Below are positions 11,338-32,456 of a DNA stretch of 64,000 bases, one piece after another (positions within the stretch are counted from its first letter, which is position 1; every line of letters starts with the position of its first letter). The stretch comes from Oceanihabitans sp. 2_MG-2023. Lineage in GTDB: Bacteria > Bacteroidota > Bacteroidia > Flavobacteriales > Flavobacteriaceae. Under the pieces are notes generated by a model that worked only from the letters and a program-made list of their open reading frames with translations, ran no database searches and was not told where the DNA came from. The stretch spans positions 124,001-188,000 of the forward strand of contig NZ_JAUOQT010000001.1 in the NCBI RefSeq assembly GCF_030547245.1, read 5' to 3'. The position numbers and the translations under genes were made by a program.

Positions 11338-11380
11338 GAAATGGATGATGCATTAACTGAGGGATGACAAAATCTTACCA

Positions 11381-12867: not shown

Positions 12868-12875
12868 ATAAATGA

Positions 12876-12905: not shown

Positions 12906-12908
12906 CAA

Positions 12909-14922: not shown

Positions 14923-15054
14923 AGAAAAATATATTTATTGCTAAATTAAAAATTTATATCTTTTAATTATCATTATTCCCATATTATGAAACAAGCATGC
15001 TAAAAACCTATCCTACTAAGAATATTAAATCGTTAACAGCATAAACACAAACAC

Positions 15055-16509: not shown

Positions 16510-16590
16510 TTCTATTTTTTTGTTAAGTTCTCTGTGTCTTATCGACAGAAACTGTATATTCATTTTTTATAACATTTTAAAAAAATAAAT

Positions 16591-16926
16591 ATGGCAAAAA
16601 CGTACTATGATCCAGCAGATTTAAGAAAGTTTGGAAAAATAACAGAATGGAACGAAGAACTTGGAAACAAGTTTTTTGACTATTATGGTAAAGTATTTGA
16701 AGAAGGAGCCTTAACTGCTAGAGAAAAATCATTAATAGCCTTAGCGGTAGCACACACCGAACAATGTCCATATTGTATTGACGCATATACCAAGGACAGT
16801 TTACAACGTGGTGTTACTAAAGAAGAAATGATGGAAGCCATTCATGTCGGTGCTGCGATAAAAAGTGGAGCAACCTTAGTGCATGGTGTACAAATGATGA
16901 ATAAAGTAAATAAACTAGACGGTTAA
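16591..16926 (+). CDS. Arsenosugar-associated peroxidase-like protein (AhpD/CMD fold)
   Basis: This 111-residue protein has an AhpD/carboxymuconolactone decarboxylase fold, with the redox pair Cys59-Cys62 in EQCPYC and the downstream amphipathic helix EAIHVGAAIKSG. The family next to ArsS genes is known as the arsenosugar biosynthesis-associated peroxidase-like protein; relatives in other bacteria replace a cysteine with selenocysteine, whereas here both positions are plain TGT cysteine codons. It lies 56 bases upstream of arsS on the same strand. A role in reducing arsenic species or protecting the radical enzyme is plausible. The biochemical reaction has not been established to my knowledge. 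Confidence 0.88.
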   Translation: MAKTYYDPADLRKFGKITEWNEELGNKFFDYYGKVFEEGALTAREKSLIALAVAHTEQCPYCIDAYTKDSLQRGVTKEEMMEAIHVGAAIKSGATLVHGVQMMNKVNKLDG

Positions 16927-16982
16927 AATAAAACCCAAACGGATTTACTTACGTAAGAATTACAAACACGAGAACCCGATTA

Positions 16983-18038
16983 ATGGCAACAAAGTCCCTA
17001 AAAAAGCTAGGAAGTGATTTAGCGAAAAGTAATAAACAATTAGAAATTTTATCTAATGGTATTTTTGCAAATGATGAACTTCCAACATTTAAAAACAAAA
17101 TTTCGGAAACGAGTCAGTTTCCGCTAAAAGCGAAACCTTTAGAAATTTTACAAATTAACGTCGGTTACATGTGTAACCAAGTTTGTGAGCATTGTCATGT
17201 AGATGCAGGTCCAGACCGAAAAGAAATCATGACGCAGGAAACCATGCAACAAATCTTAGATGTTATTAAAACTACTGGTGCGCATACTTTAGATTTAACA
17301 GGTGGCGCTCCAGAAATGAACCCTAATTTTAGATGGTTTGTCGAAGAAGCTTCAAAGATTGGTGTCAAAGATTTTATTGTTCGTTCTAATTTAACTATTA
17401 TTCGTGCAAATAAAAAATATTACGATTTACCTCAGTTTTTCAAAAAACATAACATTCATGTGATAAGTTCTATGCCACATTGGACACGTGGAAAAACCGA
17501 TAAACAACGTGGTGAAGGGGTTTTCGACATGTCTATAAAAGCATTACAAGAACTAAATGCTGTTGGTTACGGTATGCCAGGAAGCGATTTAAAATTAGAC
17601 CTAGTATACAACCCTTCTGGAGCCTTTTTACCAGGAGATCAATCTGCTATGGAAAAGGATTTCAAAAAAGCATTGATGGAAGATTTTAGTATACAGTTTC
17701 ACAACTTATTTGCGATTACTAATTTACCTATTGCAAGATTCTTAGACTTTTTAATAGCTTCAGAAAACTATGAAGATTATATGTATTCTCTAGTGGAAGC
17801 TTATAATCCTGCTGCTGTTGCAAATGTCATGTGTACTAACACATTGTCTGTAAGTTGGGATGGCTATTTATTTGATTGTGATTTTAACCAAATGCTAGAA
17901 TTACCTGTCAACAGTAAATCTAAACATATATCAGAATATAAAACAGAGCTACTGGAAGGTAGAAATATTGTAATTTCTCAACATTGTTATGGCTGTACTG
18001 CTGGAGCAGGAAGTAGCTGTCAAGGGGTTGTTGCTTAA
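16983..18038 (+). CDS. arsS: Arsenosugar biosynthesis radical SAM protein ArsS
   Basis: ArsS is a radical SAM enzyme that attaches the 5'-deoxyadenosyl group to dimethylarsenic, giving 5'-deoxy-5'-dimethylarsinoyl-adenosine, the precursor of arsenosugars. The radical SAM cluster motif is Cys64-x3-Cys68-x2-Cys71, followed by HVDAGP. A DLTGGAPEMNP segment is the SAM-binding GGE-like motif. The C-terminal Cys-rich half has Cys284, Cys299, Cys335, Cys338 and Cys346, and ends in SSCQG. Some homologues are selenoproteins; this one uses cysteine throughout. Length (351) is normal. It sits between the peroxidase-like gene and a TIGR04282 glycosyltransferase, the usual arrangement. No arsM methyltransferase is found in the window, so dimethylarsenic must be made elsewhere or imported. 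Confidence 0.92.
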   Translation: MATKSLKKLGSDLAKSNKQLEILSNGIFANDELPTFKNKISETSQFPLKAKPLEILQINVGYMCNQVCEHCHVDAGPDRKEIMTQETMQQILDVIKTTGAHTLDLTGGAPEMNPNFRWFVEEASKIGVKDFIVRSNLTIIRANKKYYDLPQFFKKHNIHVISSMPHWTRGKTDKQRGEGVFDMSIKALQELNAVGYGMPGSDLKLDLVYNPSGAFLPGDQSAMEKDFKKALMEDFSIQFHNLFAITNLPIARFLDFLIASENYEDYMYSLVEAYNPAAVANVMCTNTLSVSWDGYLFDCDFNQMLELPVNSKSKHISEYKTELLEGRNIVISQHCYGCTAGAGSSCQGVVA

Positions 18039-18061
18039 AATAAGAACTAAAAGTTTTTCGC

Positions 18062-18071
18062 TTTCGCGGAA
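18062..18071 (+). repeat. TTTCGCGGAA motif, copy 1
   Basis: This CG-rich decamer lies in the gap between arsS and the next gene. The same ten bases occur at three other places in the window (18659-18668 on minus, 35160-35169, 38501-38510). Confidence 0.5.
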
Positions 18072-18078
18072 TGTATAA

Positions 18079-18765
18079 ATGACTAATAAAACTGCAATTT
18101 TAATTTTTTCTAATTCTGCAAAAGAAGATGCCAAACGCAAATCTTTTTCAGATAGCAAATTGTTTGAAACACTTACAAACGATACGATTAAGAAAGTTAA
18201 AAAAACAGGTTTACCCTTTTTTCATTTTACCGAAACAGAACAACAAGGCACCAACTTTGGCTCTCGATTTAGCAATGCCATTCAAGCGATTTTTGATAAA
18301 GGTTTTACTAACGTTATTTCTATAGGAAACGATACCCCACATTTAAAAGCGAAACATTTAAAGCAAGCCAACCGAAAACTAATTCACAACCAATGTGTAT
18401 TTGGTCCTTCGCAAGATGGCGGCTTTTATTTAATGGGTTTAACAAAAGCTTGCTTTAAAGCGGAAGCATTTATAAAACTACCGTGGCAAACTCCTACATT
18501 AAAAACAGCAACCTTAAGGTTATTCGTTTCTAGTCAAAATGAATTCCAAATTTTAGAAACCTTAAAAGACATCGATTCTTTTCACGATGTGAAAATTATT
18601 TTAAACAGCTTCAAAACGGTTTCTAAAGAACTAAAAACACTATTATTACGACTCTGTATTTCCGCGAAGGCGATACCTATATACCTATCCAATTTTTATA
18701 GATTACAAGGCAACAATTGCTATTTTAACAAAGGATCTCCTCTATTAGTTTCTATTAAAAACTAA
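18079..18765 (+). CDS. Divergent TIGR04282-type (DUF2064) arsenosugar glycosyltransferase
   Basis: The 228-residue protein matches the GT-A-like DUF2064 family in its centre: GSRFSNAI, a GNDTPHL segment and GPSQDGGFYLMG. Compared with the second copy at 26185-26796 it lacks the N-terminal nucleotide-binding signature (TRNPELGKVKTRLA there; FSNSAKEDAKRKSF here), and the metal-binding GSD is GND. It also has a longer C-terminal tail. The two paralogs may use different donors or acceptors, or this one may be impaired. It follows arsS by 40 bases, which supports a role in arsenosugar assembly. The substrate is unknown. Confidence 0.82.
   Translation: MTNKTAILIFSNSAKEDAKRKSFSDSKLFETLTNDTIKKVKKTGLPFFHFTETEQQGTNFGSRFSNAIQAIFDKGFTNVISIGNDTPHLKAKHLKQANRKLIHNQCVFGPSQDGGFYLMGLTKACFKAEAFIKLPWQTPTLKTATLRLFVSSQNEFQILETLKDIDSFHDVKIILNSFKTVSKELKTLLLRLCISAKAIPIYLSNFYRLQGNNCYFNKGSPLLVSIKN
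18659..18668 (-). repeat. TTTCGCGGAA motif, copy 2
   Basis: This copy is on the minus strand inside the 3' part of the DUF2064 gene, where the coding strand reads the reverse complement and encodes Ser-Ala-Lys. Confidence 0.5.
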
Positions 18766-18806
18766 AGGCTTTTAGCCAATATATCACGGAAACTAATCTT
18801 TTTTTA

Positions 18807-21800
18807 ATGAAACACATTTACTTATGTGCTTTGCTTTTTGTATGTACATTTAGCTTTGCACAAACTACAATTACTGGAACAATTCGTGCACAAGACGGAC
18901 AAACATTACCTTACGTAAACATCTTAGCTAGCCAAAATAATGGTACTATATCGGATGAAAACGGACAGTATTCCATTAGCATTTTAGATCAAACACAAAG
19001 TCTAACTTTTTCTTTTATAGGTTTTAAAACACAACAAATTTTAATAGATAAACAAATGGTAATTAATGTGACTTTAATAGAAGACACCTCTAGTTTAGAC
19101 GAGGTAGTTATTACTGCTTTAGGGTTAGAAAGAGACACCAAAGAATTAGGATACGTAGTACAATCTATAAAAAGCAAAGCCATTAACGAGGTGAAATCTG
19201 TAAATTTTATAGATAATTTAGCAGGGAAATTAGCAGGCGTAACTGTTTCTCAAGGTGCAACAGGTGTTGGGTCATCCTCAAAAATAACCATTAGAGGAGA
19301 ATCTTCCTTTTCTAATAACAATCCACTTTTTGTTGTAGATGGTATACCTATTAATAATAATACCGTTTTTAACTTTACGAACGAAGCTGCTGCTGGTTTT
19401 CAAGAAATAGATTTCGGAAATGGCGCCATGGAAGTAAATGCAGATGACATTGAAGAGGTTTCTGTATTGAAAGGACCAAGTGCTGCTGCTTTATATGGTA
19501 CACGAGCTTCTAACGGAGTTATTGTAATTAAAACCAAAGATGGTAAAAAAACTAAAGGACTAGGTATTAGCATTAATTCTTCTCTATTTATTGAAAATGC
19601 TTTTAGATTGCCTGACTTTCAAAATAGTTACGGACAAGGTAATTCTGGACAGTTTGAATATGTAGATGGTCTTGGAGGAGGTATTAATGACAACATCACC
19701 TATTCTTGGGGACCACAATTAGATGCAGGTATTTTTGTTCCGCAATTTAATAGCCCTGTAACACTTGCAAACGGAACTATTGTTCGTGGTGGAGATACCG
19801 CCTTATACTCTGGCGATGCGATTACACCTACTTTGTTTCAATCGAATCCAGATAACTTAAAAGATTTTTACCAAACTGGAATTACAACCATAAATAATAT
19901 TGCAATTGCTAACGGATTTGACACTGGTGATTATCGTTTATCTTTTACAGATTTACGAAGCGAATCTATTATTCCCGGTGTGAATTTAGACAGACAAACG
20001 GTTGCTGCAAAACTGAACTTTGAGCCTACTAAAAAAACAAGCATTTCTACTTCTATATCGTATACAAATGCTACTAGTGATAATAGACCCTCTAATGGTT
20101 ACGGAAGCGAAAACGTAAATTATAGTTTGGTTGCTTGGGGACCACGAAGCTTAAACATTAACAGTTTAAAAAACTATTGGCAACCTGGTTTAGAAGGCGT
20201 ACAACAATATAGTTTTAACTATACGTTTTTTGATAATCCGTATTTTATTTTATATGAAAACACCAATAGTTTTGATAGAGATCGTGTGTTTGGAAACCTT
20301 GCTATTAAGCAGGAATTCACAGAGCATTTCAATCTACAAGTTAGAACAGGAATGGATTATTCTTCTGAAAAAAGAATACTAAAACGTGCCTATTCTAGTA
20401 ATCGTTTTCAAAATGGAGCTTACGCAGAACACGATGTCTTTTACAGAGAAGTTAATACTGATTTTTTATTAAACTACAACAATTCCTTTAGTGATTTTAA
20501 AGTAGATGTATCTATTGGTGGAAACCGATTAAACCAAAATGCATCAACAAAACAATCACAAACGGTTAGCTTAGCACAACCTGGAATTTTCAATTTAAAC
20601 AATGCAGCTTCTCCTATTGAAGTCTTTCAGTTTACATCAGAAAAACGTATTAATTCTTTTTATGGTATTGCCAAATTAGGCTACAAAGATTTTCTGTTTT
20701 TAGATATTACTGGTCGTAACGATTGGTCTAGTGCTTTAGCTACACCTTTTTCGGTAGATGGCACTTCTTTTTTCTATCCTTCTGCTTCCGCAAGTTTTAT
20801 TCTATCTAATGTTATCGAACTTCCTAAAGCAGTATCTTTTGCAAAGCTAAGAGCTAGTATTGCTCAAGTTGGTAATGATACCGATCCGTATCAAACTTCA
20901 GGCGCATTCATTTCGCAAACCACTTTTAATAGTGAACCTACATTTAGTAATCAAGATTTTATTCCTAATGCTAATCTAAAACCAGAAAGTACCACTAGTT
21001 ATGAATTTGGAGCAGATCTACGCTTCTTAAAAGATAAAATTCGTTTTGATTTCACATACTACCATGCAACTACAAAAGACCAAATTATTTCACTACCAAT
21101 TCCTATTTCCTCAGGCTATGAACAACAAGTGGTTAATGGAGGAAAAGTAAAAGCTTCAGGAATAGAAATCATTGCAGGATTCACTCCTATTAGAAATGCA
21201 AATTTTAAATGGAATAGCACTTTTAATTTTGCAAAAAACGAAGCTACTATTGAAGAGTTACCGCAAGAAAATGGTCGTCTAACTTTGGCATACAGCCGAA
21301 TTTATGATAGCGCAGATCAAACCGTTTGGTTTCAAGTAGAGGAAGGTGGACAAATTGGAGATATATACGGAACTGGGTATTTGAAAAATGAAAACGAACA
21401 ATTTATTATTGATGATAATGGAAACTTTATTGCAGATAATAACCTTCAAAAATTAGGAAACTACAACCCCGATTTTACTTTAGGATGGAATAACAATTTT
21501 AGCTATAAAAATTGGACCGCAGGCTTTTTATTGGATTGGAGACAAGGTGGCGAAATAGTTTCTAGAACAAGTGCTTTAGGAAATGTTGGCGGACAACTAG
21601 CGGAAACCGAATATAGACCAGAAGAAGGTATTATTGCCGAAGGTGTTACACAATCTGGACAACCTAACACAGTAGCTATTTCTGCAGAAAGTTATTACAG
21701 ACAGTACTACGACAGAAACCACGAAGAAAACAACGTCTATGATGCTTCCTACTTAAAACTAAGACAATTTTCTATTGGCTATACTTTTAATGTAAAAGAA

Positions 21801-21995
21801 GGTTTTTTAGGATTAAAAGATGGAGGGGACATTGGTATTTCTTTAATTGGAAAAAACCTCTTTGCTATTACCGAAAATCCGCATTTTGACCCAGAACAAC
21901 TAGCAGTTCAAGGAAACGGTTTTATTAGTGGTGTAGAAGACATGAGTTATGCAACATCCCGTAGTTTTGGATTAAAAGCAAGTTTAAATTTTTAA
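18807..21995 (+). CDS. SusC/RagA-family TonB-dependent outer membrane transporter
   Basis: This 1062-residue protein starts with a signal peptide (cleavage after FSFAQ, about residue 19). Next come a carboxypeptidase-regulatory-like domain (TITGTIRAQDG), a plug domain (about 95-215, with the VDGIPINN segment typical of SusC plugs) and a long beta-barrel ending in aromatic Phe. It should import a ligand captured by its SusD partner across the outer membrane using TonB energy. The SusD gene starts 10 bases downstream. SusCD pairs normally serve glycan or peptide uptake. Here the pair lies inside an arsenosugar-type cluster, so an organoarsenical, a nucleoside or a glycoside are candidate ligands. 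This is inferred from position only. Confidence 0.92.
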   Translation: MKHIYLCALLFVCTFSFAQTTITGTIRAQDGQTLPYVNILASQNNGTISDENGQYSISILDQTQSLTFSFIGFKTQQILIDKQMVINVTLIEDTSSLDEVVITALGLERDTKELGYVVQSIKSKAINEVKSVNFIDNLAGKLAGVTVSQGATGVGSSSKITIRGESSFSNNNPLFVVDGIPINNNTVFNFTNEAAAGFQEIDFGNGAMEVNADDIEEVSVLKGPSAAALYGTRASNGVIVIKTKDGKKTKGLGISINSSLFIENAFRLPDFQNSYGQGNSGQFEYVDGLGGGINDNITYSWGPQLDAGIFVPQFNSPVTLANGTIVRGGDTALYSGDAITPTLFQSNPDNLKDFYQTGITTINNIAIANGFDTGDYRLSFTDLRSESIIPGVNLDRQTVAAKLNFEPTKKTSISTSISYTNATSDNRPSNGYGSENVNYSLVAWGPRSLNINSLKNYWQPGLEGVQQYSFNYTFFDNPYFILYENTNSFDRDRVFGNLAIKQEFTEHFNLQVRTGMDYSSEKRILKRAYSSNRFQNGAYAEHDVFYREVNTDFLLNYNNSFSDFKVDVSIGGNRLNQNASTKQSQTVSLAQPGIFNLNNAASPIEVFQFTSEKRINSFYGIAKLGYKDFLFLDITGRNDWSSALATPFSVDGTSFFYPSASASFILSNVIELPKAVSFAKLRASIAQVGNDTDPYQTSGAFISQTTFNSEPTFSNQDFIPNANLKPESTTSYEFGADLRFLKDKIRFDFTYYHATTKDQIISLPIPISSGYEQQVVNGGKVKASGIEIIAGFTPIRNANFKWNSTFNFAKNEATIEELPQENGRLTLAYSRIYDSADQTVWFQVEEGGQIGDIYGTGYLKNENEQFIIDDNGNFIADNNLQKLGNYNPDFTLGWNNNFSYKNWTAGFLLDWRQGGEIVSRTSALGNVGGQLAETEYRPEEGIIAEGVTQSGQPNTVAISAESYYRQYYDRNHEENNVYDASYLKLRQFSIGYTFNVKEGFLGLKDGGDIGISLIGKNLFAITENPHFDPEQLAVQGNGFISGVEDMSYATSRSFGLKASLNF

Positions 21996-22005
21996 TAGAG
22001 ACACC

Positions 22006-23451
22006 ATGAAAAACATACTATATATATTTAGCTTTTTTACTCTTGTTTTAGCTACAAGTTGCACCAAAGATTTTGAAGAGACTAACACCAATCCTAATGC
22101 GCCAAACACCGTACAACCTAGTTTATTACTACGTCAAGTTATATACGATTTTGGAGAAAATATGAGCTACGAAGGTTTTGTTGCTGGCGATTTATTAGCG
22201 CAACATAGAACCGCTTTAGATTTTAATTTATTTGATAGACACGCATTAAAATCACCACAATTAGGTGGGAATCCTTGGCCAATTTTTTATACCAACTTAC
22301 GAGATAATGAAATTATTTTAAACCAATCTAGATCTACTGCAACCTTTCAAGTTTATGAAGGTCCTGCTTTAATTTTAAAAGCATATATGGCTGCTGGTTT
22401 AACCGATTTATTTGGTGACGTTCCTTATTTTGAAGCTTTTAACGGTATAGATTTAACAGTAACTCCAACCTATGACACACAAGAAGCTATCTACTTAGAA
22501 GAAGGAGGGATTTTAGATAATCTAGATAAAGGTATTGCTGCCATTGAAAACTATAATTTATCTATTCCGTTAGAAGGAGATATTTTATTTAATGGCGATT
22601 TAAACGCATGGATCAAATTTGCAAATAGTTTAAAACTAAAATATTTACTAAGAATTTCAAGCAAAATAGAGGTTTCTGAAGACATACAAAACCTGTATAA
22701 CGAAGGTCTTTTTATTTCAACCACAGCCGAAAATGCAATTTTCAACTATACAAACACAGATCCTAATAGCTTTAGGTTAGCACAATTACGCGTTGGAGAT
22801 TTCAATAACTTTGTACTATCTAAAACGATGGAAGAAATTTTATCCCACTTAAATGACGATAGAATAAACACCTTTTTCAAACCTTTTGAAAACGCAACTT
22901 CTAACCAATTTAACGGACTAATTAATGGTATTGATGCTGCTTCTACTTCTATTGTTTTAGCAGATTATTCTTTAGGAGGAAGCGCTTTTAGAGAAGACAC
23001 TTCGGTTTTAGATGCTAATTTCATGACGTCCTGGGAAGTCTATTTTATTTTAGCAGAAGCCGCAACTAAAGGATATATTTCTGCTAACGCACAAGAGTTA
23101 TACGAAACTGGAATTATTCAAGCTTTTGAATACTGGCAAACCGAATTACCTGCTAGCTATTTAACAGGGAATGCAGCTTTTAATGCAGTAGGGACAACAC
23201 CATTACAACAAATAATTACACAGAAGTGGATTGCAAATCTAATTAATGGGTATGAAGGATGGATAGAATATAACCGTACAGGTTTCCCTGAATTTAATGC
23301 TATTTCAGCAAGTTTGAATAATGGATTAATTCCAGTTAGAATGCCATATCCCGCAGAAGAAGAAGCCTTAAATGCAGAAAATTATAACCAAGCGGCAACA
23401 GCAACTAATGGTAATGATATTAATTTTCCGGTTTGGTGGAATGAAAATTAA
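22006..23451 (+). CDS. SusD/RagB-family outer membrane lipoprotein
   Basis: The 481-residue protein begins with a lipoprotein signal ending in LATSC (lipid-anchored cysteine near residue 19). Sequence of the form TNPNAPNTVQPSLLLRQ and helical repeats such as LILKAYMAAGLTDLFGDVPY are diagnostic of SusD-like proteins. It should sit on the cell surface as the lid of the SusC transporter encoded just upstream and bind the ligand. The C-terminal EALNAENYNQA segment, near a final WW, is also typical. It is followed after 15 bases by a sodium:solute symporter, which could carry the same ligand through the inner membrane. Ligand identity is not visible. Confidence 0.92.
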   Translation: MKNILYIFSFFTLVLATSCTKDFEETNTNPNAPNTVQPSLLLRQVIYDFGENMSYEGFVAGDLLAQHRTALDFNLFDRHALKSPQLGGNPWPIFYTNLRDNEIILNQSRSTATFQVYEGPALILKAYMAAGLTDLFGDVPYFEAFNGIDLTVTPTYDTQEAIYLEEGGILDNLDKGIAAIENYNLSIPLEGDILFNGDLNAWIKFANSLKLKYLLRISSKIEVSEDIQNLYNEGLFISTTAENAIFNYTNTDPNSFRLAQLRVGDFNNFVLSKTMEEILSHLNDDRINTFFKPFENATSNQFNGLINGIDAASTSIVLADYSLGGSAFREDTSVLDANFMTSWEVYFILAEAATKGYISANAQELYETGIIQAFEYWQTELPASYLTGNAAFNAVGTTPLQQIITQKWIANLINGYEGWIEYNRTGFPEFNAISASLNNGLIPVRMPYPAEEEALNAENYNQAATATNGNDINFPVWWNEN

Positions 23452-23466
23452 AAGGAAAAATAATTT

Positions 23467-24801
23467 ATGAGTACAGAAAATTGGCAATGGCTTTTAGTTG
23501 TAGGATCAAGTTTAATCTTGTTTTTACTATCTCCGTATGCAAAAACAACAGATGCTTTTTTTAAAGCAACGCATAACAAAAAGTCACCAAACGTTTTAGT
23601 GTTAACAGGTAGCTTAATAATCTCTTGGATTTTTGCAAAAAGTATTACCGTTGCTGCTAATTTAGGTTTAGATTTCGGACTTGTTGGTGGTGTTGCGTAT
23701 GCAGGATACTACTTGAGTTTTGCCGTTGCAGGTGTACTGATTTACCAATTACGAACCAAAGGAGGTTACACAAGTATACATGATTTTTTAACTAGTAAAT
23801 TTGGCAAGAAAGCAGTTGCTATATTCACCTTTCTAATCATTATTAGATTGTTTAATGAGGTATGGAGTAACACCATGGTTATAGGTTCTTATTTTGGGGA
23901 AACAGGAAGTACCAGTTATTATACTGCAATAATTGTATTTACTGTACTAACCCTTAGCTACGCTATAAAAGGTGGTTTAAGTAGTTCTATTTTTTCAGAT
24001 GTCATACAGATGGTTTTATTTTCGGTATTACTAATTATAATTCTTTACACTATTTTTTCGGTGGAAACCTTTACCGCAAAAAACATAACAACTTCTGGAA
24101 CTTGGAGTTTTGAATTGGGTTTAAATTTATTTTTTGCAGCAATTATTCAGTCCTTTAGCTATCCATTTCATGATCCTGTTTTAACAGATAGAGCTTTTAT
24201 TAGCTCCCCAAAAGTGACTAGGAAAAGTTTTTTATGGGCTAGCTTTTTTGGTGCATTATGCATTGTTCTTTTTAGTTTGATTGGTGTATATGCAAAAACA
24301 CAAGGCATAAAAGGACAGGCAGCTGTTCAAGTAGGTAAAGCATTTGGTTTAGTAATATTACTAGTAATAAACTTTATCATGATTACCTCTGCAGCATCAA
24401 CATTAGATTCCACTTTTTCCTCCTTTTCTAAATTATTAGCAGTCGATTTGGGTCTAGGAAAAAACATAACTTTTGGAAGGTTAGCAATGGTTGGTATTGC
24501 GGTATTGGGTACCATTCCAATCTTTTTTAATGCTGAAATACTATCCGCAACTACTATTTCTGGAACGATGGTTATCGGACTTACACCCATTTTCTTATTC
24601 TGGAAATATGAAGTACCAAAAATTAGCTTTTACCTAAGTATTGGTTGTGGTATACTTTTTGGTTTATTATTAATATTTAAAGCTTTTCCTAATGCTTTAA
24701 TTTTTACTAAAGGCCGCTATGCAGACCTACTTTGGATTAATGTTTGGGGAATTTTTTGTTGTAACCTTATATATTTCGTTCCTAGATGGATAAAAAAATA
24801 A
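23467..24801 (+). CDS. Sodium:solute symporter (SSS family)
   Basis: This 444-residue inner-membrane protein has about 12-13 hydrophobic segments. The FSYPFHDPVLTDRAF loop and the SAASTLDSTFSSFSKLLAVD segment are typical of the SSS family (PutP/SGLT superfamily), the latter holding the sodium-site serines. It is placed directly after SusCD, and its end overlaps the metallophosphoesterase gene by 16 bases. SusCD plus SSS would form a two-membrane uptake route. It is shorter than many SSS members (about 500 or more residues). The substrate is unknown; a sugar, nucleoside or arsenosugar would fit the neighbours. Confidence 0.9.
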   Translation: MSTENWQWLLVVGSSLILFLLSPYAKTTDAFFKATHNKKSPNVLVLTGSLIISWIFAKSITVAANLGLDFGLVGGVAYAGYYLSFAVAGVLIYQLRTKGGYTSIHDFLTSKFGKKAVAIFTFLIIIRLFNEVWSNTMVIGSYFGETGSTSYYTAIIVFTVLTLSYAIKGGLSSSIFSDVIQMVLFSVLLIIILYTIFSVETFTAKNITTSGTWSFELGLNLFFAAIIQSFSYPFHDPVLTDRAFISSPKVTRKSFLWASFFGALCIVLFSLIGVYAKTQGIKGQAAVQVGKAFGLVILLVINFIMITSAASTLDSTFSSFSKLLAVDLGLGKNITFGRLAMVGIAVLGTIPIFFNAEILSATTISGTMVIGLTPIFLFWKYEVPKISFYLSIGCGILFGLLLIFKAFPNALIFTKGRYADLLWINVWGIFCCNLIYFVPRWIKK

Positions 24802-25613
24802 AACATATTGGTACATTAAACGGTAAAGTATTACTTTTTGGTGGTATTTATAGCAATCTTCAAGCTTTAGAAGCCCTTAAAGCTGTTGCTGAACAAAAAG
24901 GAATTGTACCAGAAAACTGTATTTGTACAGGAGACATTGTTGGCTATTGTGCGGAACCTGAAGAAACGGTTCAACTTTTAAAACTATGGAAAGCAAAAAG
25001 CATTTTAGGAAATGTAGAAATTCAATTAACAGAAGGTGAAGCAGATTGTGGATGTGATTTCACTGCAGGTTCACGTTGTGATGGCTTTTCAAAATTATGG
25101 TATCCATTTGCCCAAAGTAAGCTTAGTAAAAATGCTATAGATTATTTAGCTACTTTTCCAGATCACATCACTTTTAACTATGCAAATAAAAAAGTAACGG
25201 TTGTACATGGTGACTATTTTAATGTATCTGAATTTATCTTCAAATCTACAGATTGGTCTATCAAACAAAGAACAATAGAAGCAACCAATAGTGATGTTAT
25301 TGTTGCTGGACATTGTGGTTTACCTTTTTATCAGCAAAAAAACAATAAATTATGGTTAAATCCTGGTGTAATTGGTATGCCAGCAAACGATGGAACACCA
25401 CAAGTATGGTATGCAATTTTAGAAGAAGTACATGGCGAAATGAAATTTACACATCACAATCTCGACTATAATTACAAGTTAACCAACACATTAATGAGTA
25501 ACGGTTTTCTACCAGAAGAATATGCCAGAACTATTGTTACTGGAATTTGGGATAATACAGAAATTTTACCTGCAATCGAAAGTGGATTACAAGGTTTTGG
25601 GATAACATTATAA
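24786..25613 (+). CDS. Variant metallophosphoesterase
   Basis: The 275-residue protein follows the YfcE-like metallophosphoesterase plan but with altered metal motifs. The usual DxHGN start is GGIYSN, GDIVGY keeps the second Asp, GNHD is GNVE, VHGD keeps its His, and GHTH is GHCG. Several cysteines cluster (CIC, GYC, DCGC and GSRC). I recall a subfamily in other marine bacteria with the same changes, so this is probably a conserved variant and not decay. Whether it is a phosphatase is open. In this operon it could dephosphorylate a sugar phosphate released by the nucleoside phosphorylase. Its start overlaps the symporter by 16 bases, and its stop overlaps the next start (TAATG). Confidence 0.8.
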   Translation: MDKKIKHIGTLNGKVLLFGGIYSNLQALEALKAVAEQKGIVPENCICTGDIVGYCAEPEETVQLLKLWKAKSILGNVEIQLTEGEADCGCDFTAGSRCDGFSKLWYPFAQSKLSKNAIDYLATFPDHITFNYANKKVTVVHGDYFNVSEFIFKSTDWSIKQRTIEATNSDVIVAGHCGLPFYQQKNNKLWLNPGVIGMPANDGTPQVWYAILEEVHGEMKFTHHNLDYNYKLTNTLMSNGFLPEEYARTIVTGIWDNTEILPAIESGLQGFGITL

Positions 25614-26164
25614 TGCAAAAAACAACACACATGAAATATACATTAATTATTCTTTTCACTTTTTTATCTACAGCAATGCTAGCACAAAAAAATCTTGAAG
25701 ATTTATTAAAACAATATAATGACAAAGGCATTCCATACATTAGTGTAGAAGAGCTCGCCATGCCAAAAACTAACGCTATATTATTAGATACTAGAGAGCC
25801 AAAAGAATATGAGGTAAGTCATTTAAAAGATGCTGTTTCTGTTGGTTATGATCATTTTGATATTGCTTCCGTAGAAAAACAATATCCTAATAAAGACGAA
25901 AAAATTGTGGTCTATTGTTCTTTAGGTATTAGAAGTGAAACCGTTGGTAAAAAACTAAAAGAAGCAGGATATACTAATGTCTACAATTTATATGGAGGTA
26001 TTTTTGAATGGAAAAACAAAGATTTTAGCGTGATCGATTCCGAAGAAAAAGAAACAGAAAAGATTCACACCTTCAATAAAGAATGGAGTAAATGGCTAGA
26101 AAAAGGAGAAAAAATTTATGAAGAAACTCCTAAAAAAAAGAAGAAAAAAAACAAATCCAATTAA
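25613..26164 (+). CDS. Secreted rhodanese-like protein
   Basis: The protein contains one rhodanese domain (about residues 35-140) with the active-site Cys in YCSLGIRS. An N-terminal hydrophobic signal peptide ends at LAQK, so the protein should be periplasmic. The first ATG (25613) overlaps the upstream stop as TAATG. An alternative ATG at 25631 gives a more standard signal peptide and may be the true start. The C-terminus is lysine-rich (KKKKKKNK). Rhodaneses move sulfane sulfur; in an arsenic context, formation of thio-arsenicals is conceivable but speculative. Confidence 0.88.
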   Translation: MQKTTHMKYTLIILFTFLSTAMLAQKNLEDLLKQYNDKGIPYISVEELAMPKTNAILLDTREPKEYEVSHLKDAVSVGYDHFDIASVEKQYPNKDEKIVVYCSLGIRSETVGKKLKEAGYTNVYNLYGGIFEWKNKDFSVIDSEEKETEKIHTFNKEWSKWLEKGEKIYEETPKKKKKKNKSN

Positions 26165-26184
26165 ACCAAACGTAAAGCAACTAA

Positions 26185-26796
26185 ATGCACAAAAATTTAA
26201 TCATTACATTTACTAGAAATCCAGAATTAGGTAAGGTAAAAACACGATTAGCAAAAACGATTGGAGACCAATCTGCTTTAAACATCTACACCTTTTTATT
26301 AGAACACACCGAAAAAACCATTAGAAACATAGACAGCGACAAAGCGGTGTATTACTCGGTTAGCATTAGAGAAAAGGATATTTGGGATAACAAAACCTAC
26401 CAAAAACACCAACAACAAGGAAACGATTTAGGTGTTAGAATGCAAAATGCTTTTAAGGCAGGTTTTGCTGCTGGATATAAAAAAATTGTCATTGTTGGTA
26501 GTGATTTATTCGACTTACAACCCAAACACCTAAACGAAGCTTTTAAAGCCTTAGATAAAAACGATGCAGTTATTGGTCCTGCTGAAGATGGAGGATATTA
26601 TCTTTTAGGAATGAAAACAATATTACCTTCCGTTTTTGAAACAAAAGAATGGGGAACAGATACGGTTTTTAATAACACCATAAAAGATTTACAAAATTTT
26701 AAGACCTACCATCTGGAAAAGTTAAATGATATTGATACTTTTGAAGATATGGAACATAATTCCACATTAAAAAAACTATTAATTACACATGATTAA
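26185..26796 (+). CDS. TIGR04282-type (DUF2064) arsenosugar glycosyltransferase
   Basis: This 203-residue GT-A-like protein has the family signatures intact: TRNPELGKVKTRLA near the N-terminus (nucleotide-binding loop like CofC/MobA), GVRMQNAF, the metal-binding GSD and GPAEDGGYYLLG. The family is named for its regular occurrence with ArsS. It is predicted to transfer or activate a sugar during arsenosugar assembly. It overlaps the phosphorylase gene by 8 bases, so the two are probably made together. The donor and acceptor are unknown. The paralog at 18079-18765 is much more divergent. Confidence 0.9.
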   Translation: MHKNLIITFTRNPELGKVKTRLAKTIGDQSALNIYTFLLEHTEKTIRNIDSDKAVYYSVSIREKDIWDNKTYQKHQQQGNDLGVRMQNAFKAGFAAGYKKIVIVGSDLFDLQPKHLNEAFKALDKNDAVIGPAEDGGYYLLGMKTILPSVFETKEWGTDTVFNNTIKDLQNFKTYHLEKLNDIDTFEDMEHNSTLKKLLITHD

Positions 26797-27601
26797 ATAT
26801 ATAAACGAAACCGTAGAATATCTTCAAGAAAAAGGTTTTGAAAAACCAGAAATAGGAATTATTCTTGGCACAGGACTTGGGCAACTTTTAAAGGAAATAA
26901 ACATTTTAAAAGAAGTAAGCTATAATCATATTCCAAATTTTCCAACAGCTACAGTAGAGTTTCACAAAGGAAAACTTATCTATGGAGAATTAGAAGGTAA
27001 AAAAGTAATAGTAATGCAAGGCCGTTTTCATATATATGAAGGTTACTCACTACAAGATGTCACCTACCCTGTTCGTATTATGGAAAAACTAGGTATAACA
27101 ACCTTATTAGTTTCTAATGCTTCTGGTGCAATAAACACCAACTTTAAAAAAGGGGAGTTGATGCTCATTGAAGACCATATAAATCTTCAAGGTAGCTCTC
27201 CTCTAGCGTTTAAAGGAGTTTCAGAACTTGGAGAACGTTTTACAGACATGAGCGCTCCTTATGATGCAAACATTAATGAAAGTTTTAAAGCTATTGCAAC
27301 AGCAAATAATATAAAACTACACGAAGGTGTTTACGCTAGTGTTGTAGGTCCGCAATTAGAAACTAGAGCAGAATATAGAATGTTAAAAATTATTGGTGCA
27401 GATGCTGTTGGTATGAGTACCGTTCCAGAAATTATTGTTGCAAATCATTTAAATTTAAAAGCTGCCGCAGTTTCTGTCTTAACAGATGAATGTGATCCAG
27501 AAAACCTAAAACCAGTAAACATTGATGAAATTATTGCCATGGCTGCAAAAGCAGAACCAAACATGATTACATTATTTAAAGAATTAATAAAAAATCTATA
27601 A
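26789..27601 (+). CDS. Trimeric-type purine nucleoside phosphorylase with MTAP-like Asp
   Basis: This 270-residue enzyme belongs to the PNP/MTAP family and should cleave purine nucleosides with phosphate. Visible are the phosphate loop GTGLG, QGRFHIYEGY, SNASGAIN and GPQLETRAEYR with Glu191 (the human PNP Glu201 position), and GADAVGMSTVPE. At the base-specificity position (human PNP Asn243) it has Asp233 in LTDECDP, as in MTAP. Known N243D changes in trimeric PNP shift preference towards 6-aminopurines. An adenine-releasing activity would let it split the ArsS product dimethylarsinoyl-adenosine. The gene also fits purine salvage feeding guanine deaminase and xanthine dehydrogenase. Confidence 0.92.
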   Translation: MIKYINETVEYLQEKGFEKPEIGIILGTGLGQLLKEINILKEVSYNHIPNFPTATVEFHKGKLIYGELEGKKVIVMQGRFHIYEGYSLQDVTYPVRIMEKLGITTLLVSNASGAINTNFKKGELMLIEDHINLQGSSPLAFKGVSELGERFTDMSAPYDANINESFKAIATANNIKLHEGVYASVVGPQLETRAEYRMLKIIGADAVGMSTVPEIIVANHLNLKAAAVSVLTDECDPENLKPVNIDEIIAMAAKAEPNMITLFKELIKNL

Positions 27602-27639
27602 AAGAAATAGTCTTAGATTAAATCTTAATACTATCTAAT

Positions 27640-27678
27640 AGCCATTAGAGAAACAAACTATTTATTTCTCTAATGGCT
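27640..27678 (+). terminator. Strong hairpin after the nucleoside phosphorylase gene
   Basis: A perfect 14-bp inverted repeat (AGCCATTAGAGAAA at 27640-27653 and its complement at 27665-27678) encloses an 11-base loop. It lies 39 bases after the phosphorylase stop. No clean U-tract follows on either strand, so it may be an attenuating or RNA-stabilising hairpin and not a full intrinsic terminator. Confidence 0.55.
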
Positions 27679-27760
27679 CTATTGATTTAAGAAATGACGT
27701 AAAAGAAAACGAAAATAAAAAAATGTTATTTTTACCTTACATTTTCGACTGAAGCATCAC

Positions 27761-28654
27761 ATGGAAAAATACATAGACATCATAAAAAATTCCTATTCTG
27801 GGTATTTTAACTACCTAAAAAATGAACTAATTTCTATTAACCATTGGGACAATTATTTTTACGGATTAATAATTATTTCTTTAGTGGTTTGGGGGTTAGA
27901 AATTGCATTTCCATGGCGAAAAAATCAATCTATTTTTAGAAAAGATTTTTGGTTAGACACCTTTTACATGTTTTTCAATTTCTTTTTGCTAAATCTAATT
28001 GTTCTTATTGCCTTATCGAATACAGCAGCTGCTTTTTTTGATGATATTTTAGGTGCTTTTAATCTATCTATTTTTAGCTTCCAATTATTTGATGTAGATA
28101 ACTTACCAAGAGCATTAGGCTTATTTATTTTCTTTTTGGTTAGTGATTTTATGCAGTGGAATACGCATCGATTACTACATCGCGTACCCATGTTTTGGAA
28201 CTTTCATAAAGTACACCATTCTGTAAAAGAAATGGGCTTTGCTGCACACTTACGCTACCATTGGATGGAGCCAGTACTCTATAAATCTATGCTATACATT
28301 CCGCTAGCAATTATTGGTGGTTTTGACGCACAAGATGTTGCAATCGTTCACTTTTTTGCGATTACTATTGGACATTTAAATCATGCAAATTTAGGTTGGG
28401 ATTACGGTGTATTAAAATATGTTTTTAACAATCCTAAAATGCATATCTGGCACCATGTAAAAGAATTACCAGAAGGGGTTACATATGGAATTAATTACGG
28501 AATTACATTAAGTATTTGGGATTACATTTTTAAAACAAACCACATTCCTTATGATGGTAGAGATATCGAACTTGGTTTTGAAGGTGACGAAAATTTTCCA
28601 AAAGATTTTATTAGTCAAGAAATATATCCTATAAATAAAAACACTTCTAAATAA
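27761..28654 (+). CDS. Sterol desaturase/fatty acid hydroxylase-family membrane enzyme
   Basis: This 297-residue protein has four or five membrane segments and the histidine clusters of the di-iron fatty-acid-hydroxylase superfamily: HRLLH, HKVHH and HIWHH, plus HFFAITIGHLNH. Such enzymes use oxygen to hydroxylate or desaturate lipid chains, or to cleave ether lipids. It lies within the arsenosugar-type island, 159 bases after the phosphorylase and separated by a hairpin, with a possible TACATTTT -7 box upstream. A lipid-modifying enzyme beside arsenosugar genes raises the idea of arsenosugar-containing lipids. The substrate is not known. Confidence 0.88.
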   Translation: MEKYIDIIKNSYSGYFNYLKNELISINHWDNYFYGLIIISLVVWGLEIAFPWRKNQSIFRKDFWLDTFYMFFNFFLLNLIVLIALSNTAAAFFDDILGAFNLSIFSFQLFDVDNLPRALGLFIFFLVSDFMQWNTHRLLHRVPMFWNFHKVHHSVKEMGFAAHLRYHWMEPVLYKSMLYIPLAIIGGFDAQDVAIVHFFAITIGHLNHANLGWDYGVLKYVFNNPKMHIWHHVKELPEGVTYGINYGITLSIWDYIFKTNHIPYDGRDIELGFEGDENFPKDFISQEIYPINKNTSK

Positions 28655-28710
28655 CGCACCTCTTGTGTAAGGTAACTCGATAAGTTTTGACGAATAGAGA
28701 AACAAATACT

Positions 28711-29592
28711 ATGAAATATTTTAGTCTGATTTTTTTTGCTATTCTAATCAGTTCTTGTTCCTCTACAAAACAAATAGTAAACAACAACGAGAATGTAAAA
28801 GAAGAAACTACTACTATAAAAGCCCAAGAGGGTACACCTGAAGTTGAAGTTGAAGTTGAAGTTGAAGAACTTATTAAAAACGAAATACCCGAATCACCTC
28901 AACCAGCTAAATTAGAAGTAGCAAACAGTATAGAACATAATGTTAAAGAAACTTTTAACCACGAAACATGGAATACATTATTACATAAAAATGTAACCGA
29001 AACTGGTAATGTAAACTACGTATCCTTTAAAAAAAACTCAACCGAATTACGTATTTACATAGATTCTTTAGCTGATAACATGCCAAATGAAGCATGGACA
29101 AAAGAAGATAAACTAGCATATTGGATAAATGCCTACAATGCTATGACCGTAGATTTAATTATTAGAAATTATCCCGTAAAGAGCATTAAAGATATTAAAG
29201 ACCCGTGGGAGCAACGCTTATGGAAACTTGGCAATAAATGGTATAATCTTGATGAAATTGAGCATCAAATTTTACGAAAAATGGAAGAACCAAGAATACA
29301 TTTTGCAATTGTTTGCGCATCATATTCTTGTCCGAAATTACAAAACGAAGCTTTTACTGCAAGTAAATTAGAAGCACAATTAACAGCGGCTACCAAAGGT
29401 TTTTTAGCAGATAATAATCGAAACGAGATTTCTTCAAATACTATTAAGATTTCAAAAATTTTTCAATGGTTTTCTAAAGATTTTAAACAAAACGGGAATC
29501 TTATTGATTTCTTAAACACTTATACAGAAATAAATATTTCTTCCAACGCAAAAAAGAGTTATAAAGATTACAATTGGGATTTGAATGAATAA
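28711..29592 (+). CDS. DUF547 lipoprotein
   Basis: With the ATG at 28711 the protein starts with a lipoprotein signal ending in ISSC; a TTG at 28687 would place eight extra residues before it and is unlikely. After a low-complexity acidic linker with a VE repeat, the DUF547 domain spans about residues 90-280. It has the conserved AYWINAYNAM and the HFAIVCASYSCPKL segment with its paired cysteines. Its biochemical role is unknown; it should be membrane-anchored in the periplasm. It overlaps the following glycosyltransferase gene by 8 bases. A second DUF547 gene is at 34497-35213. Confidence 0.88.
   Translation: MKYFSLIFFAILISSCSSTKQIVNNNENVKEETTTIKAQEGTPEVEVEVEVEELIKNEIPESPQPAKLEVANSIEHNVKETFNHETWNTLLHKNVTETGNVNYVSFKKNSTELRIYIDSLADNMPNEAWTKEDKLAYWINAYNAMTVDLIIRNYPVKSIKDIKDPWEQRLWKLGNKWYNLDEIEHQILRKMEEPRIHFAIVCASYSCPKLQNEAFTASKLEAQLTAATKGFLADNNRNEISSNTIKISKIFQWFSKDFKQNGNLIDFLNTYTEINISSNAKKSYKDYNWDLNE
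28840..28866 (+). repeat. GAAGTT hexanucleotide repeat, about 4.5 copies
   Basis: GAAGTT is repeated in tandem inside the DUF547 lipoprotein gene and encodes alternating Val-Glu in the linker after the lipid anchor. Length variation here would change the linker by two residues per copy and keep the frame. Confidence 0.8.
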
Positions 29593-30334
29593 AATTTCTA
29601 TCCTCATTCCAATATTAAACGAATCAGATACTATTAAAAATCTGCTATCCCATTTATATGAAAATATTTCTCGAAAAAATAATATTGAAATACTTGTTGT
29701 GGATGGAGGAAGCACAGATGGGTCTCAAGAAATAGTTCGTAATTTTAAAACTAGCATCTCGAAAGTAGTTGAGAAGTCTTTAATAGGTAACGACTACATG
29801 CAACCGGGCATTCAAATAATTCCTTCAGAAAAAGGAAGAGCAAAACAAATGAATCTTGGTGCAAAACATGCTTCCGGAAACATTCTTTACTTTTTACATG
29901 CAGACTCTTTTCCGCCAAAAAACTTTGACCAACACATTATTAATGCTGTAAAAAACAACAACCTAGCAGGTTGTTTCAGGATGCAATTTAACAGCAATCA
30001 TTGGTGGTTACGTTTGGCGAGTTGGTTTACAAAATTTAATTGGAAAGCCTGTAGAGGAGGAGATCAAAGTCTGTTTATTACTAAGGATTTATTTAATAGT
30101 ATTGGAGGTTTTAGTGAAAACTATGTTATTTATGAAGACATTATTTTAATAAATAAACTGTATGCTAAAAAGGAATTTATTGTGCTAAATAAAAAAATAA
30201 GAACCTCAGCAAGATTGTATAAAAAACATGGGGTTTGGAAATTACAATATCACTTTTTAATGATTTATATCAAAAAAGGGTTTGGTGCTTCAGCAGAAGA
30301 TTTATATGCCTATTACAAAAAACATATTGCTTAA
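29585..30334 (+). CDS. TIGR04283-type arsenosugar glycosyltransferase
   Basis: This 249-residue GT2 enzyme shows the standard N-terminal PILNE and the VDGGSTDGS motif, then KGRAKQMNLGA, the LHADS metal motif and RGGDQSLF, which are hallmarks of the TIGR04283 family found with ArsS clusters. It should be cytoplasmic or peripherally membrane-bound. Its start overlaps the DUF547 gene by 8 bases, and it ends the plus-strand run, 6 bases from a convergent phosphatase gene. The donor sugar is unknown. Confidence 0.9.
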   Translation: MNKISILIPILNESDTIKNLLSHLYENISRKNNIEILVVDGGSTDGSQEIVRNFKTSISKVVEKSLIGNDYMQPGIQIIPSEKGRAKQMNLGAKHASGNILYFLHADSFPPKNFDQHIINAVKNNNLAGCFRMQFNSNHWWLRLASWFTKFNWKACRGGDQSLFITKDLFNSIGGFSENYVIYEDIILINKLYAKKEFIVLNKKIRTSARLYKKHGVWKLQYHFLMIYIKKGFGASAEDLYAYYKKHIA

Positions 30335-30340
30335 AACATT

Positions 30341-31078
30341 CTATTTATTCCTTCCTTTTTCATTAGGATATAAGGTATACACAGGATCACTTTGAAAATA
30401 AGCCTTAGTATCAATATTTAATGCAGAAAGCTTGCCTTTAAAGGCCACACCAGTATCTACATTCCAAACATTTACAGCATTGGTGGGAACATCTAAATTA
30501 AAATTTGTAGTTGGAGTATGTCCAATATAAATTTCGAAATAATGCTTTAACCTATTTGGATACAATAAAGAATTCTTTGTAATACTTTTATCCATAGCTA
30601 GTACCATTTCCCAAAGTGTTCTATCGGTATAAAAAGTTGCTTTATTCATCTCTCTTCCAATACCATGTGGTGAGGTAAATCCTGCGTGTAAAAACAGCCG
30701 TTGTTTATCATCCAACATACAAAGTCGCATGTTTTTAAAAAACTGGAGATGTATTTTTTTATCGTTCTCAGAGAAGGTTTTATAACTCTCTATGGTTTCT
30801 TTTCCTCCATGAATCAACCAGGTTTGATTAATACTGCCTGTTTCTAACCATTGTTCACACCAAAGATCATGGTTTCCTTTTATAAACGTACAATGATTTT
30901 GTTTTGAAAACTCTATTAGAAACTGAATCACTTGTGCTGCCTCACTCCAACCATCTACATAGTCTCCTAAAAAAATAAAAGCATCATCTGTCGTTATTTC
31001 AATACGACTCAATAGTTGTTCTAATGCTTTTAGCCCGCCATGAATATCTCCAATTGCCAGTGTTCTATAATGTTTCAT
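30341..31078 (-). CDS. PPP-family serine/threonine phosphatase-like protein
   Basis: The 245-residue protein has the complete PPP metal motifs in order: GDIHGG, GDYVDGW, GNHDLW, a single His in LHAGF, and GHTPT. This is the pattern of bacterial PrpA/ApaH-type phosphatases, which act on phosphoproteins or dinucleoside polyphosphates. There is no signal peptide. In contrast with the variant enzyme at 24786-25613, all metal ligands are intact. It is convergent with the glycosyltransferase gene and separated from the Omp85-like gene upstream by about 110 bases. Substrate choice cannot be made from sequence. Confidence 0.9.
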   Translation of the reverse strand: MKHYRTLAIGDIHGGLKALEQLLSRIEITTDDAFIFLGDYVDGWSEAAQVIQFLIEFSKQNHCTFIKGNHDLWCEQWLETGSINQTWLIHGGKETIESYKTFSENDKKIHLQFFKNMRLCMLDDKQRLFLHAGFTSPHGIGREMNKATFYTDRTLWEMVLAMDKSITKNSLLYPNRLKHYFEIYIGHTPTTNFNLDVPTNAVNVWNVDTGVAFKGKLSALNIDTKAYFQSDPVYTLYPNEKGRNK

Positions 31079-31187
31079 TTAATAATTCTATTGTAAAATT
31101 GATAACGAACAGTAAATATTGGTATTCCTTTTTTAAAATGCAGGTAATATTACTTTAATAAATCTTTAATTTTATGATCTTTGATTA

Positions 31188-32456
31188 CTAAAAATACTGT
31201 CCGATACCAAAAACCAGACCTTGTGTTTCTCCTTTTGTAATTCCGAAACCATAATCTATTCTAAAAATAGCATTAAAAATACGCTTATGTATTAGTCTAA
31301 AACCAATACCAGAAAAAACTCTAATATTTTTTGACTTACTAAAATCACTTAAATCACCACCAGGATTTCGCCAAGTACCGGCATCGACGAAAGCATTTCC
31401 TTGAATTGCAAACCAATTTTTGTCTAATAGTGTTTGTCTATATTCGGTATTAACAACAATAGCACCTGTACCTCTATCAATCGTATTACCAACGCCTCTT
31501 AAATTCACATTATTATCTACAGAAAAAGGTGCAAATGGTGTTTTATCATTACTAGATAAACCAAGACGCAATCTATTTGCCCAATTTCCTTTGTTACCTA
31601 TTCTTTTATAAAAATGAAAATCATTCCATCCAATTAAAAAGTTGGATACATCTTTACTAGTAGAAGTTACATATTGAAAATTAAACAAACTTTTAAATCC
31701 AGACACATATTGGTAATAATAGTCTAAATTATTATATTCATAAATCCCTTTATACAATAGCTTTTTTACGGAAAACCCCTGTGGAACCGAAGGGCTTGTT
31801 GCTCCATTTAAATACTTATATTCTTCAAGAAAATAGTTAAGACCTACTTCAAAACGATTATTAAAATTAGGTTGATATAGTGTTAAAACCTCATAGGATT
31901 TATTTTTATACTTGTAATTTGCTGAAGTATTATTAAAAAAAACAGGTTCTTCTGTATTTAAATCTTGATGGTTAACTGCCAAACCAAAGGCTCGACTAAA
32001 TAAAAAAGGTGCTCTAAGGTTTATACCATAAGAACTAAATATATCTTTTTGATAAAAACCTCCAAAAATAATGTTTTGGCCTAGAGTATTAAATTCATAC
32101 AAACCAATACGATATGCAAATTCATCATCATTAGTTGTGTAGATACTTAATGATGGAATAATAGTAAAATTCTCTTCTATAGTATAAAACACATTATAAC
32201 TATTATCGTGAGAATGAAAAACTTGATAATAGGCATGCGATACTGCAGGTAAACGTTTTAAGCGTTTTATATCTTCCTCTAAAATCATAGAGTCTAAAAC
32301 TTTACCTGCTTGTGCTTTAGATATTTTTTTTATTAATGAAGACTTCAGTTTTTTGTTTCCTTGTACTTTCACATCTAAAACTGTTTGCTCTTGTGCTAAA
32401 GAAAAAGCCGAGAACAAAGAAAAAAAAAGTATAAATGCTATATAAGTTATTTTCAT
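31188..32456 (-). CDS. Omp85/BamA-like outer membrane protein with one POTRA-like domain
   Basis: This 422-residue protein has a signal peptide ending in LAQEQ, one POTRA-like domain (about 27-95, VLDVKVQGNKK to YTIEENF), and a C-terminal barrel with a VNTEYRQTL strand. It closes with IDYGFGIT and an aromatic FGIGQYF end, as in surface-antigen/Omp85 family barrels. It is far shorter than BamA (five POTRA domains), so it is not the central BAM protein. Its start overlaps the glycoside-hydrolase-like gene by 4 bases, which suggests that the two work together at the cell surface. Confidence 0.85.
   Translation of the reverse strand: MKITYIAFILFFSLFSAFSLAQEQTVLDVKVQGNKKLKSSLIKKISKAQAGKVLDSMILEEDIKRLKRLPAVSHAYYQVFHSHDNSYNVFYTIEENFTIIPSLSIYTTNDDEFAYRIGLYEFNTLGQNIIFGGFYQKDIFSSYGINLRAPFLFSRAFGLAVNHQDLNTEEPVFFNNTSANYKYKNKSYEVLTLYQPNFNNRFEVGLNYFLEEYKYLNGATSPSVPQGFSVKKLLYKGIYEYNNLDYYYQYVSGFKSLFNFQYVTSTSKDVSNFLIGWNDFHFYKRIGNKGNWANRLRLGLSSNDKTPFAPFSVDNNVNLRGVGNTIDRGTGAIVVNTEYRQTLLDKNWFAIQGNAFVDAGTWRNPGGDLSDFSKSKNIRVFSGIGFRLIHKRIFNAIFRIDYGFGITKGETQGLVFGIGQYF

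Follow-up and report, generated by a model that had tools for sequence, protein, structure and literature searches.

The phosphorylase gene that closes the arsS operon at positions 26789 to 27601 (forward strand) of the window, the stretch of 64,000 nucleotides from Oceanihabitans sp. 2_MG-2023 analysed here, would encode a 5′-deoxy-5′-substituted-adenosine phosphorylase, cleaving the product of the radical SAM enzyme ArsS while also taking part in the salvage of 5′-deoxyadenosine. To this reading, which is drawn from sequence comparison, we give a probability of about 0.6. The deadenylation role put forward in the original prediction is in this way partly supported, mostly by the apolar residue found where canonical enzymes hold the 5′-hydroxyl, by the linkage, confined to one subclade of the family, to arsS, arsM and the TIGR04282 gene, and by the lack of another MTA-type phosphorylase. 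In the open literature we found no paper on the step that follows ArsS, the enzyme that removes adenine being unnamed there, and the phosphorylase is a concrete and widely conserved candidate for this removal, with reasons at the level of individual residues. The curated names of arsenosugar families include no phosphorylase, and the gene described here would add one.

A phosphorylase of the trimeric PNP family with MTAP-like residues

The open reading frame is intact and encodes 270 residues. In profile searches its product scores 344.6 bits with NF006054 (purine-nucleoside phosphorylase, PNP; curated cut-off 218) and 171.6 bits with PF01048, and its AlphaFold2 monomer model (pLDDT 94.9) finds as best match in the PDB the PNP I of Spirosoma linguale, 4lna (Z 42.1, rmsd 1.1, 267 residues, 52% identity), followed by further trimeric PNPs, human H257 mutants among them. 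Profile and NP-I fold alike place the protein in the trimeric PNP family (EC 2.4.2.1), the human and bacterial members of which (1rr6, 8swt) resemble it in fold with Z of 38-42 and 38-52% identity, and share with it Arg84, His86, Glu201, Met219 and other phosphate and sugar residues. Phe159, an active-site residue that comes from the neighbouring subunit in the homotrimer, has a conserved equivalent in the aligned sequence and, while the model is that of a monomer, the enzyme is presumably a homotrimer as well. No second trimeric PNP was found in the window genome, whose other phosphorylase-domain proteins are a DeoD-type PNP encoded beside deoC, a uridine-phosphorylase-like protein and an effector-like protein. 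A large open frame on contig 23 of genome G000 (L005, 1031 residues) carries a C-terminal phosphorylase-superfamily domain and looks effector- or sensor-like.

Where the enzyme differs from the trimeric PNPs is in its arsenosugar gene context and in a few residues of the active site. Alignment with human PNP (checked against PDB chain 7zsl_A) and with human MTAP (checked against its own PDB chain) confirms what had been read from the sequence at the outset, namely that Asp233 (codon 27485-27487, forward strand) stands at the position of human PNP Asn243, with Asp as in MTAP (Asp220), and that Glu191 matches Glu201. Three further features come in addition to these. Ile245 (codon 27521-27523, forward strand) replaces His257, the residue in contact with the 5′-hydroxyl in human PNP, at a position where human MTAP has Val233. 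Leu190 replaces Phe200, the pair that it forms with Glu191 (codons 27356-27361, forward strand) being invariant in alignment A2. Finally, Asp236 stands at human position 246, next to Cys235 (codons 27491-27496, forward strand); the copies of the gene that are linked to arsS or TIGR04282 have Asp or Asn at 246 in 91 cases out of 91, and Cys at 245 in 90 out of 91. Asp at 243 and an apolar residue at 257 are also what is found in MTAP and MtnP (TIGR01694), with which the phosphorylase is expected to share the use of adenosines with an apolar 5′ group, but it retains Glu, not Ser, at 201, and its 93.9 bits fall far below the TIGR01694 cut-off of 274.85. As judged from its sequence, the enzyme is MTAP-like by its residues, yet no member of that family.

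The statement that an Asn-to-Asp change brings 6-aminopurine activity to trimeric PNPs is borne out by the K. lactis enzyme, in which this single replacement, with Glu kept, took adenosine phosphorolysis from not detected to a kcat/KM of 2.2 × 10^6 M-1 s-1, inosine being left below adenosine at 1.6 × 10^5; a 5000-fold gain is quoted in the same paper for human N243D (PMC5074518). The association of Asp233 with Glu191 is therefore compatible with 6-aminopurines. The side chain of His257 is found at the 5′-hydroxyl (PMC4308819; PMC10226123), with a hydrogen bond that was not persistent in simulation (PMC4308819). Taken together, Asp233 and Ile245 predict 5′-deoxy-5′-substituted adenosines as substrates; with Glu191 kept where MTAP has Ser, 6-oxopurines may still bind.

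Residue types and clades among homologues

A survey of 183 non-redundant homologues, mostly from Bacteroidota and uneven in its coverage of the phylum, separates three main types and a smaller one according to the residues at human positions 200, 201, 243 and 257. Clade A (Leu-Glu-Asp-aliphatic) accounts for 139 of them and clade B (Phe or Tyr-Glu-Asp-His) for 25, while the canonical type (Tyr-Glu-Asn-His, 12 homologues) and an Asn/aliphatic type (seven homologues) are without Asp at 243. The caveat, expressed from the start, that this Asp might be widespread in Bacteroidota was well founded: it is present in 139/139 members of clade A and 25/25 members of clade B. We therefore reject the idea that Asp233 singles out the operon, since this residue is common to nearly all trimeric PNPs of the phylum, including the Asp/His type of clade B, which retains His257 and never occurs near arsS in this sample. 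Of the deadenylation role deduced from Asp233 there remains that Asp favours 6-aminopurines; its use as a sign of the ars operon has to be given up. On sequence grounds, clade A is set apart by the apolar residue that replaces His257, not by Asp, and every arsS-linked copy tested is of the Asp/aliphatic type, with Leu, Glu, Asp and an aliphatic residue at the four positions.

In a tree built leaving out columns 242-258 and 200, the members of clade A with Asp, Asn or Glu at 246 gather in one near-clade, A1 (SH-aLRT 98; three misplacements), to which the window phosphorylase belongs. All 91 copies linked to arsS or TIGR04282 are in A1, and the 11 A2 and 7 His257 copies for which the context covered reaches 12 kb or more are unlinked. 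The Spirosoma enzyme 4lna, like clade A, has Leu, Glu, Asp and Leu at the four positions, but it differs by Phe at 246 (TDLCFP), as does the unlinked A2 group. The state of position 246 changed about once or twice on the tree, so that this state and the linked subclade arose roughly once, and the correlations between them must be seen as a single evolutionary event rather than many independent ones. Asp at 246 and Cys at 245 were also considered as independent evidence, and this argument is weakened by the small number of changes on the tree and by the lack of an independent pair covarying with linkage. In genus g112 the clade A gene is present only in genomes with arsS, beside it (G229, G357, G427), and a clade B (Asp/His) paralogue occurs both with and without arsS.

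That the enzyme is an ordinary PNP acting on inosine and guanosine, as its annotation has it, appears improbable. It passes the NF006054 cut-off and keeps Glu191, and the B. fragilis PNP 8swt, which in the alignment has this Asp together with His at 257, was solved as a complex with Immucillin-H, an analogue of inosine (no paper on the kinetics of this PNP was found in the open literature). The 6-oxopurine-specific enzymes have Asn at 243 together with His at 257, and Asp233 and Ile245 depart from both. TIGR01700, the profile of inosine/guanosine-specific PNPs, is not reached (287.6 bits for a cut-off of 293.35), although A2 members pass it with 326 bits, which makes this cut-off no clean divider. 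The window genome has its DeoD-type PNP elsewhere, and relatives in other Bacteroidota families carry a canonical Asn/His PNP together with a clade A enzyme in one genome, which argues that the latter is not their inosine/guanosine PNP.

Less probable still is a route in which a deaminase would act first, yielding dimethylarsinoyl-inosine (or 5′-deoxyinosine), which would then be cleaved in the manner of methylthioinosine phosphorylase. Glu191 would suit such a 6-oxo substrate, as would the clade A paralogues with Asn243 and an aliphatic residue at 257 that adjoin the Asp form as tandem copies in genomes G195 and G325; against this, in the K. lactis mutant the Asp at 243 works to the disadvantage of inosine (PMC5074518), and there is no deaminase among the identified genes of the operon. 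At L109:7876-9526 and L115:8038-9670 a tandem pair of clade A phosphorylases was seen, one carrying Asn243, the other Asp243, both aliphatic at 257; they look like a natural 6-oxo/6-amino pair for 5′-apolar nucleosides.

The operon

From 16591 to 27601 all genes are on the forward strand, never more than 57 bp apart, and between arsS and the phosphorylase the gaps are of at most 42 bp or give way to overlaps, which makes a single operon plausible. The series opens with an arsenosugar-associated peroxidase-like protein (16591-16926; TIGR04169, 195.1 bits, cut-off 120) and with arsS, coding for the radical SAM DDMAA synthase (16983-18038; TIGR04167, 437.3 bits, cut-off 300). There follows a second, partial TIGR04282-like frame (18079-18765; 103.3 bits, under the cut-off of 134), which lacks model positions 1-69, the first third of the model, and which recurs after arsS in relatives. 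Next come a SusC/SusD-type outer-membrane uptake pair (18807-23451; TIGR04056, 600 bits; PF12771, 291 bits), a protein with weak likeness to sodium:solute symporters (23467-24801; TIGR00813, 30.1 bits, and PF00474, 21.3 bits, neither of which reaches its cut-off) and a calcineurin-like metallophosphoesterase (24786-25613; PF12850, 47.2 bits). This block possibly serves in the uptake of an arsenical or of a nucleoside; it is found again in several relatives (L120, L121, L157, L215-L217, L301).

The phosphorylase is immediately preceded by a rhodanese-domain protein (25613-26164; NF045521, 219.8 bits, cut-off 145), from a family named for standing near a glycosyltransferase, and by TIGR04282, a CofC-like, GT-A type transferase (26185-26796; 217.5 bits, cut-off 134), the gene of which overlaps the start of the phosphorylase by 8 bp. 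This protein scores 40.6 bits with TIGR03552, the CofC guanylyltransferase, and its relative 3cgx is a putative nucleotide-diphospho-sugar transferase. After the phosphorylase stop codon, a 14-bp hairpin (27640-27678, forward strand; RNA fold -24.5 kcal/mol, z -4.25) probably ends the transcription unit; downstream of it come two regular members of the module, the DUF547 protein and the TIGR04283 glycosyltransferase (28687-30334, forward strand; PF04784, 99.1 bits; TIGR04283, 233 bits, cut-off 182). An Rfam search of window positions 15000-32000 returned no RNA family, and a scan for consensus promoters and terminators gave no excess over shuffled sequences. A few kilobases upstream of the ars operon, perhaps by chance, lie the xanthine dehydrogenase genes xdhA and xdhB, together with xdhC (7113-13676).

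Linkage to arsenosugar genes and the question of salvage

The phosphorylase shares its neighbourhood with the arsenosugar gene set (ArsM NF038099, ArsS TIGR04167, TIGR04282 and TIGR04283) across Flavobacteriaceae-type genomes, and is linked to this set beyond chance. Among 149 genomes of the window genome's family, arsS, counted over its cut-off, is present in 119 and clade A in 131, the latter being found in all 119 genomes with arsS and in 12 of the 30 without (Fisher p 1e-15, a figure in which the relatedness of the genomes overstates independence). The distance between the two genes is at most 20 kb in 97 of the 119 genomes, when random placement would lead one to expect about 1.4, and at most 5 kb in 81. 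At the clade A loci that are away from arsS, TIGR04282 adjoins the phosphorylase in the first 20 fetched out of 20, mostly with DUF547 and TIGR04283; of the 89 A1 loci that contain it, 80 have it on the strand of the phosphorylase and less than 400 bp away. An arsenosugar-type ArsM (NF038099) is encoded within 3 kb of the phosphorylase at 66 loci, among which that of G142, of the same genus as the window genome, where it follows the phosphorylase (L036:2695-3660; 569.5 bits, cut-off 400); the 66 loci also include 17 of the 22 with arsS elsewhere, and none of the arsS-free loci checked. When neighbours were clustered without preselected families, the phosphorylase came among the five commonest near arsS, in Bacteroidota only. 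Loci from Chitinophagales (L279, L291, L295) have it beside arsS in other arrangements, upstream or divergent. Queried by tblastn with the PNP, human PNP and human MTAP, the surroundings of arsS in Cyanobacteriota, Planctomycetota, Myxococcota, Nitrospirota and others yielded no PNP or MTAP, which suggests that there the step falls to something different, or to a gene not linked to arsS.

A general salvage phosphorylase for 5′-deoxyadenosine and MTA, standing in the operon to clear the by-products of radical SAM chemistry or methyl transfer, or to recover adenine, is what most deserves to be weighed against the dual role, and we hold it to be rather unlikely. It would account for the fact that most Bacteroidota have clade A, mostly unlinked to arsS, in genomes without MTAP and mostly without MTAN, and that seven genomes of the family without arsS keep an A1 gene alone and intact, which makes it unlikely that the clade as a whole serves arsenic chemistry only. 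It fits poorly with the gathering of every linked copy in A1, with the A2 and His257 copies never linked, and with the persistence of TIGR04282 and arsM beside the phosphorylase even at loci away from arsS. Furthermore, since the adenosyl group passes to arsenic in the ArsS reaction, no 5′-deoxyadenosine need be released. Five other genomes of the family without arsS keep the A1 gene with TIGR04282 and TIGR04283. The rhodanese/TIGR04282/PNP/TIGR04283 module was met in genomes without arsS or arsM (L065, L066, L073, L077, L082), one of which, G016, has only a C-terminal arsS-like fragment.

The distribution of other enzymes bears on the same question. Canonical MTAP is present over its curated cut-off in none of the 149 genomes, and the MTA/SAH nucleosidase (MTAN) in 4 of the 131 genomes with clade A as against 7 of the 18 others (p 3e-5), a pattern that may reflect lineage. 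A clean complementarity between clade A and MTAN or MTAP was considered and could be upheld only in part, since 11 genomes have neither clade A nor MTAN; ten genomes are without clade A, clade B and MTAN alike. The bacteria surveyed still make 5′-deoxyadenosine through other radical SAM enzymes, and a phosphorylase with a dual role, in an arsenosugar step and in 5′-deoxyadenosine salvage, fits best. Many of the proteins annotated in Bacteroidota as inosine/guanosine phosphorylases may then be phosphorylases of 5′-deoxyadenosine and MTA, filling the gap left by MTAP and MTAN. Conversion of 5′-deoxyadenosine is established for the MtnP of S. elongatus (PMC8102628).

A proposed route

From the sequence, fold, residues, clade, linkage and absence of canonical MTAP, which are observed here, we infer the substrate, the product and all the downstream steps as follows. 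ArsS reportedly forms dimethylarsinoyl-adenosine, according to work of 2021 that is cited in PMC12159101, and ArsM together with ArsS would supply 5′-deoxy-5′-dimethylarsinoyl-adenosine. In the phosphorylase, Asp233 would accept the 6-aminopurine, and Ile245, in the place of the His that holds the 5′-hydroxyl, would make an apolar 5′ pocket; phosphorolysis would then give adenine and 5-dimethylarsinoyl-ribose-1-phosphate. The anomeric phosphate thus retained could serve the CofC-like TIGR04282 enzyme of the overlapping upstream gene, nucleotidyl transfer being here a guess, and TIGR04283 would next transfer the sugar to an acceptor. Phosphorolysis, as opposed to hydrolysis, would account for the neighbouring gene of a nucleotidyltransferase-like enzyme. 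The same phosphorylase would probably also clear the 5′-deoxyadenosine made by other radical SAM enzymes.

One may go further, and suppose that A1 is a committed dimethylarsinoyl-adenosine phosphorylase, that TIGR04282 activates the arsenic sugar with a nucleotide, and that TIGR04283 transfers it to glycerol or lipid acceptors. This we put forward tentatively, as a possibility against which the odds still lean; were it true, A1, TIGR04282 and TIGR04283 would constitute a sugar-nucleotide route to arsenosugars. Quite another link with arsenic would be arsenolysis, in which arsenate is used for phosphate and its reduction thereby aided, as reported for mammalian PNP. PNP-dependent arsenate reduction was indeed observed in vitro (Gregus and Nemeti 2002, cited in PMC12608789), but it is doubtful in vivo according to the latter paper, and it leaves unexplained both the 5′ pocket and the association with ArsS and ArsM rather than with arsenate reductases, so that we see hardly any chance that it accounts for the gene.

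The place of arsM in the window genome

The arsM gene that follows the phosphorylase in G142 and most relatives is missing at window positions 27601-27761. A close query found no ArsM within the window, nor did a divergent one in the single search made of the whole window genome (99.96% complete), and this genome itself appears to be without arsM. If such is the case, the strain may no longer make arsenosugars; alternatively, it may take up arsenic already methylated, perhaps by means of the SusC/SusD and symporter-like block of its operon.
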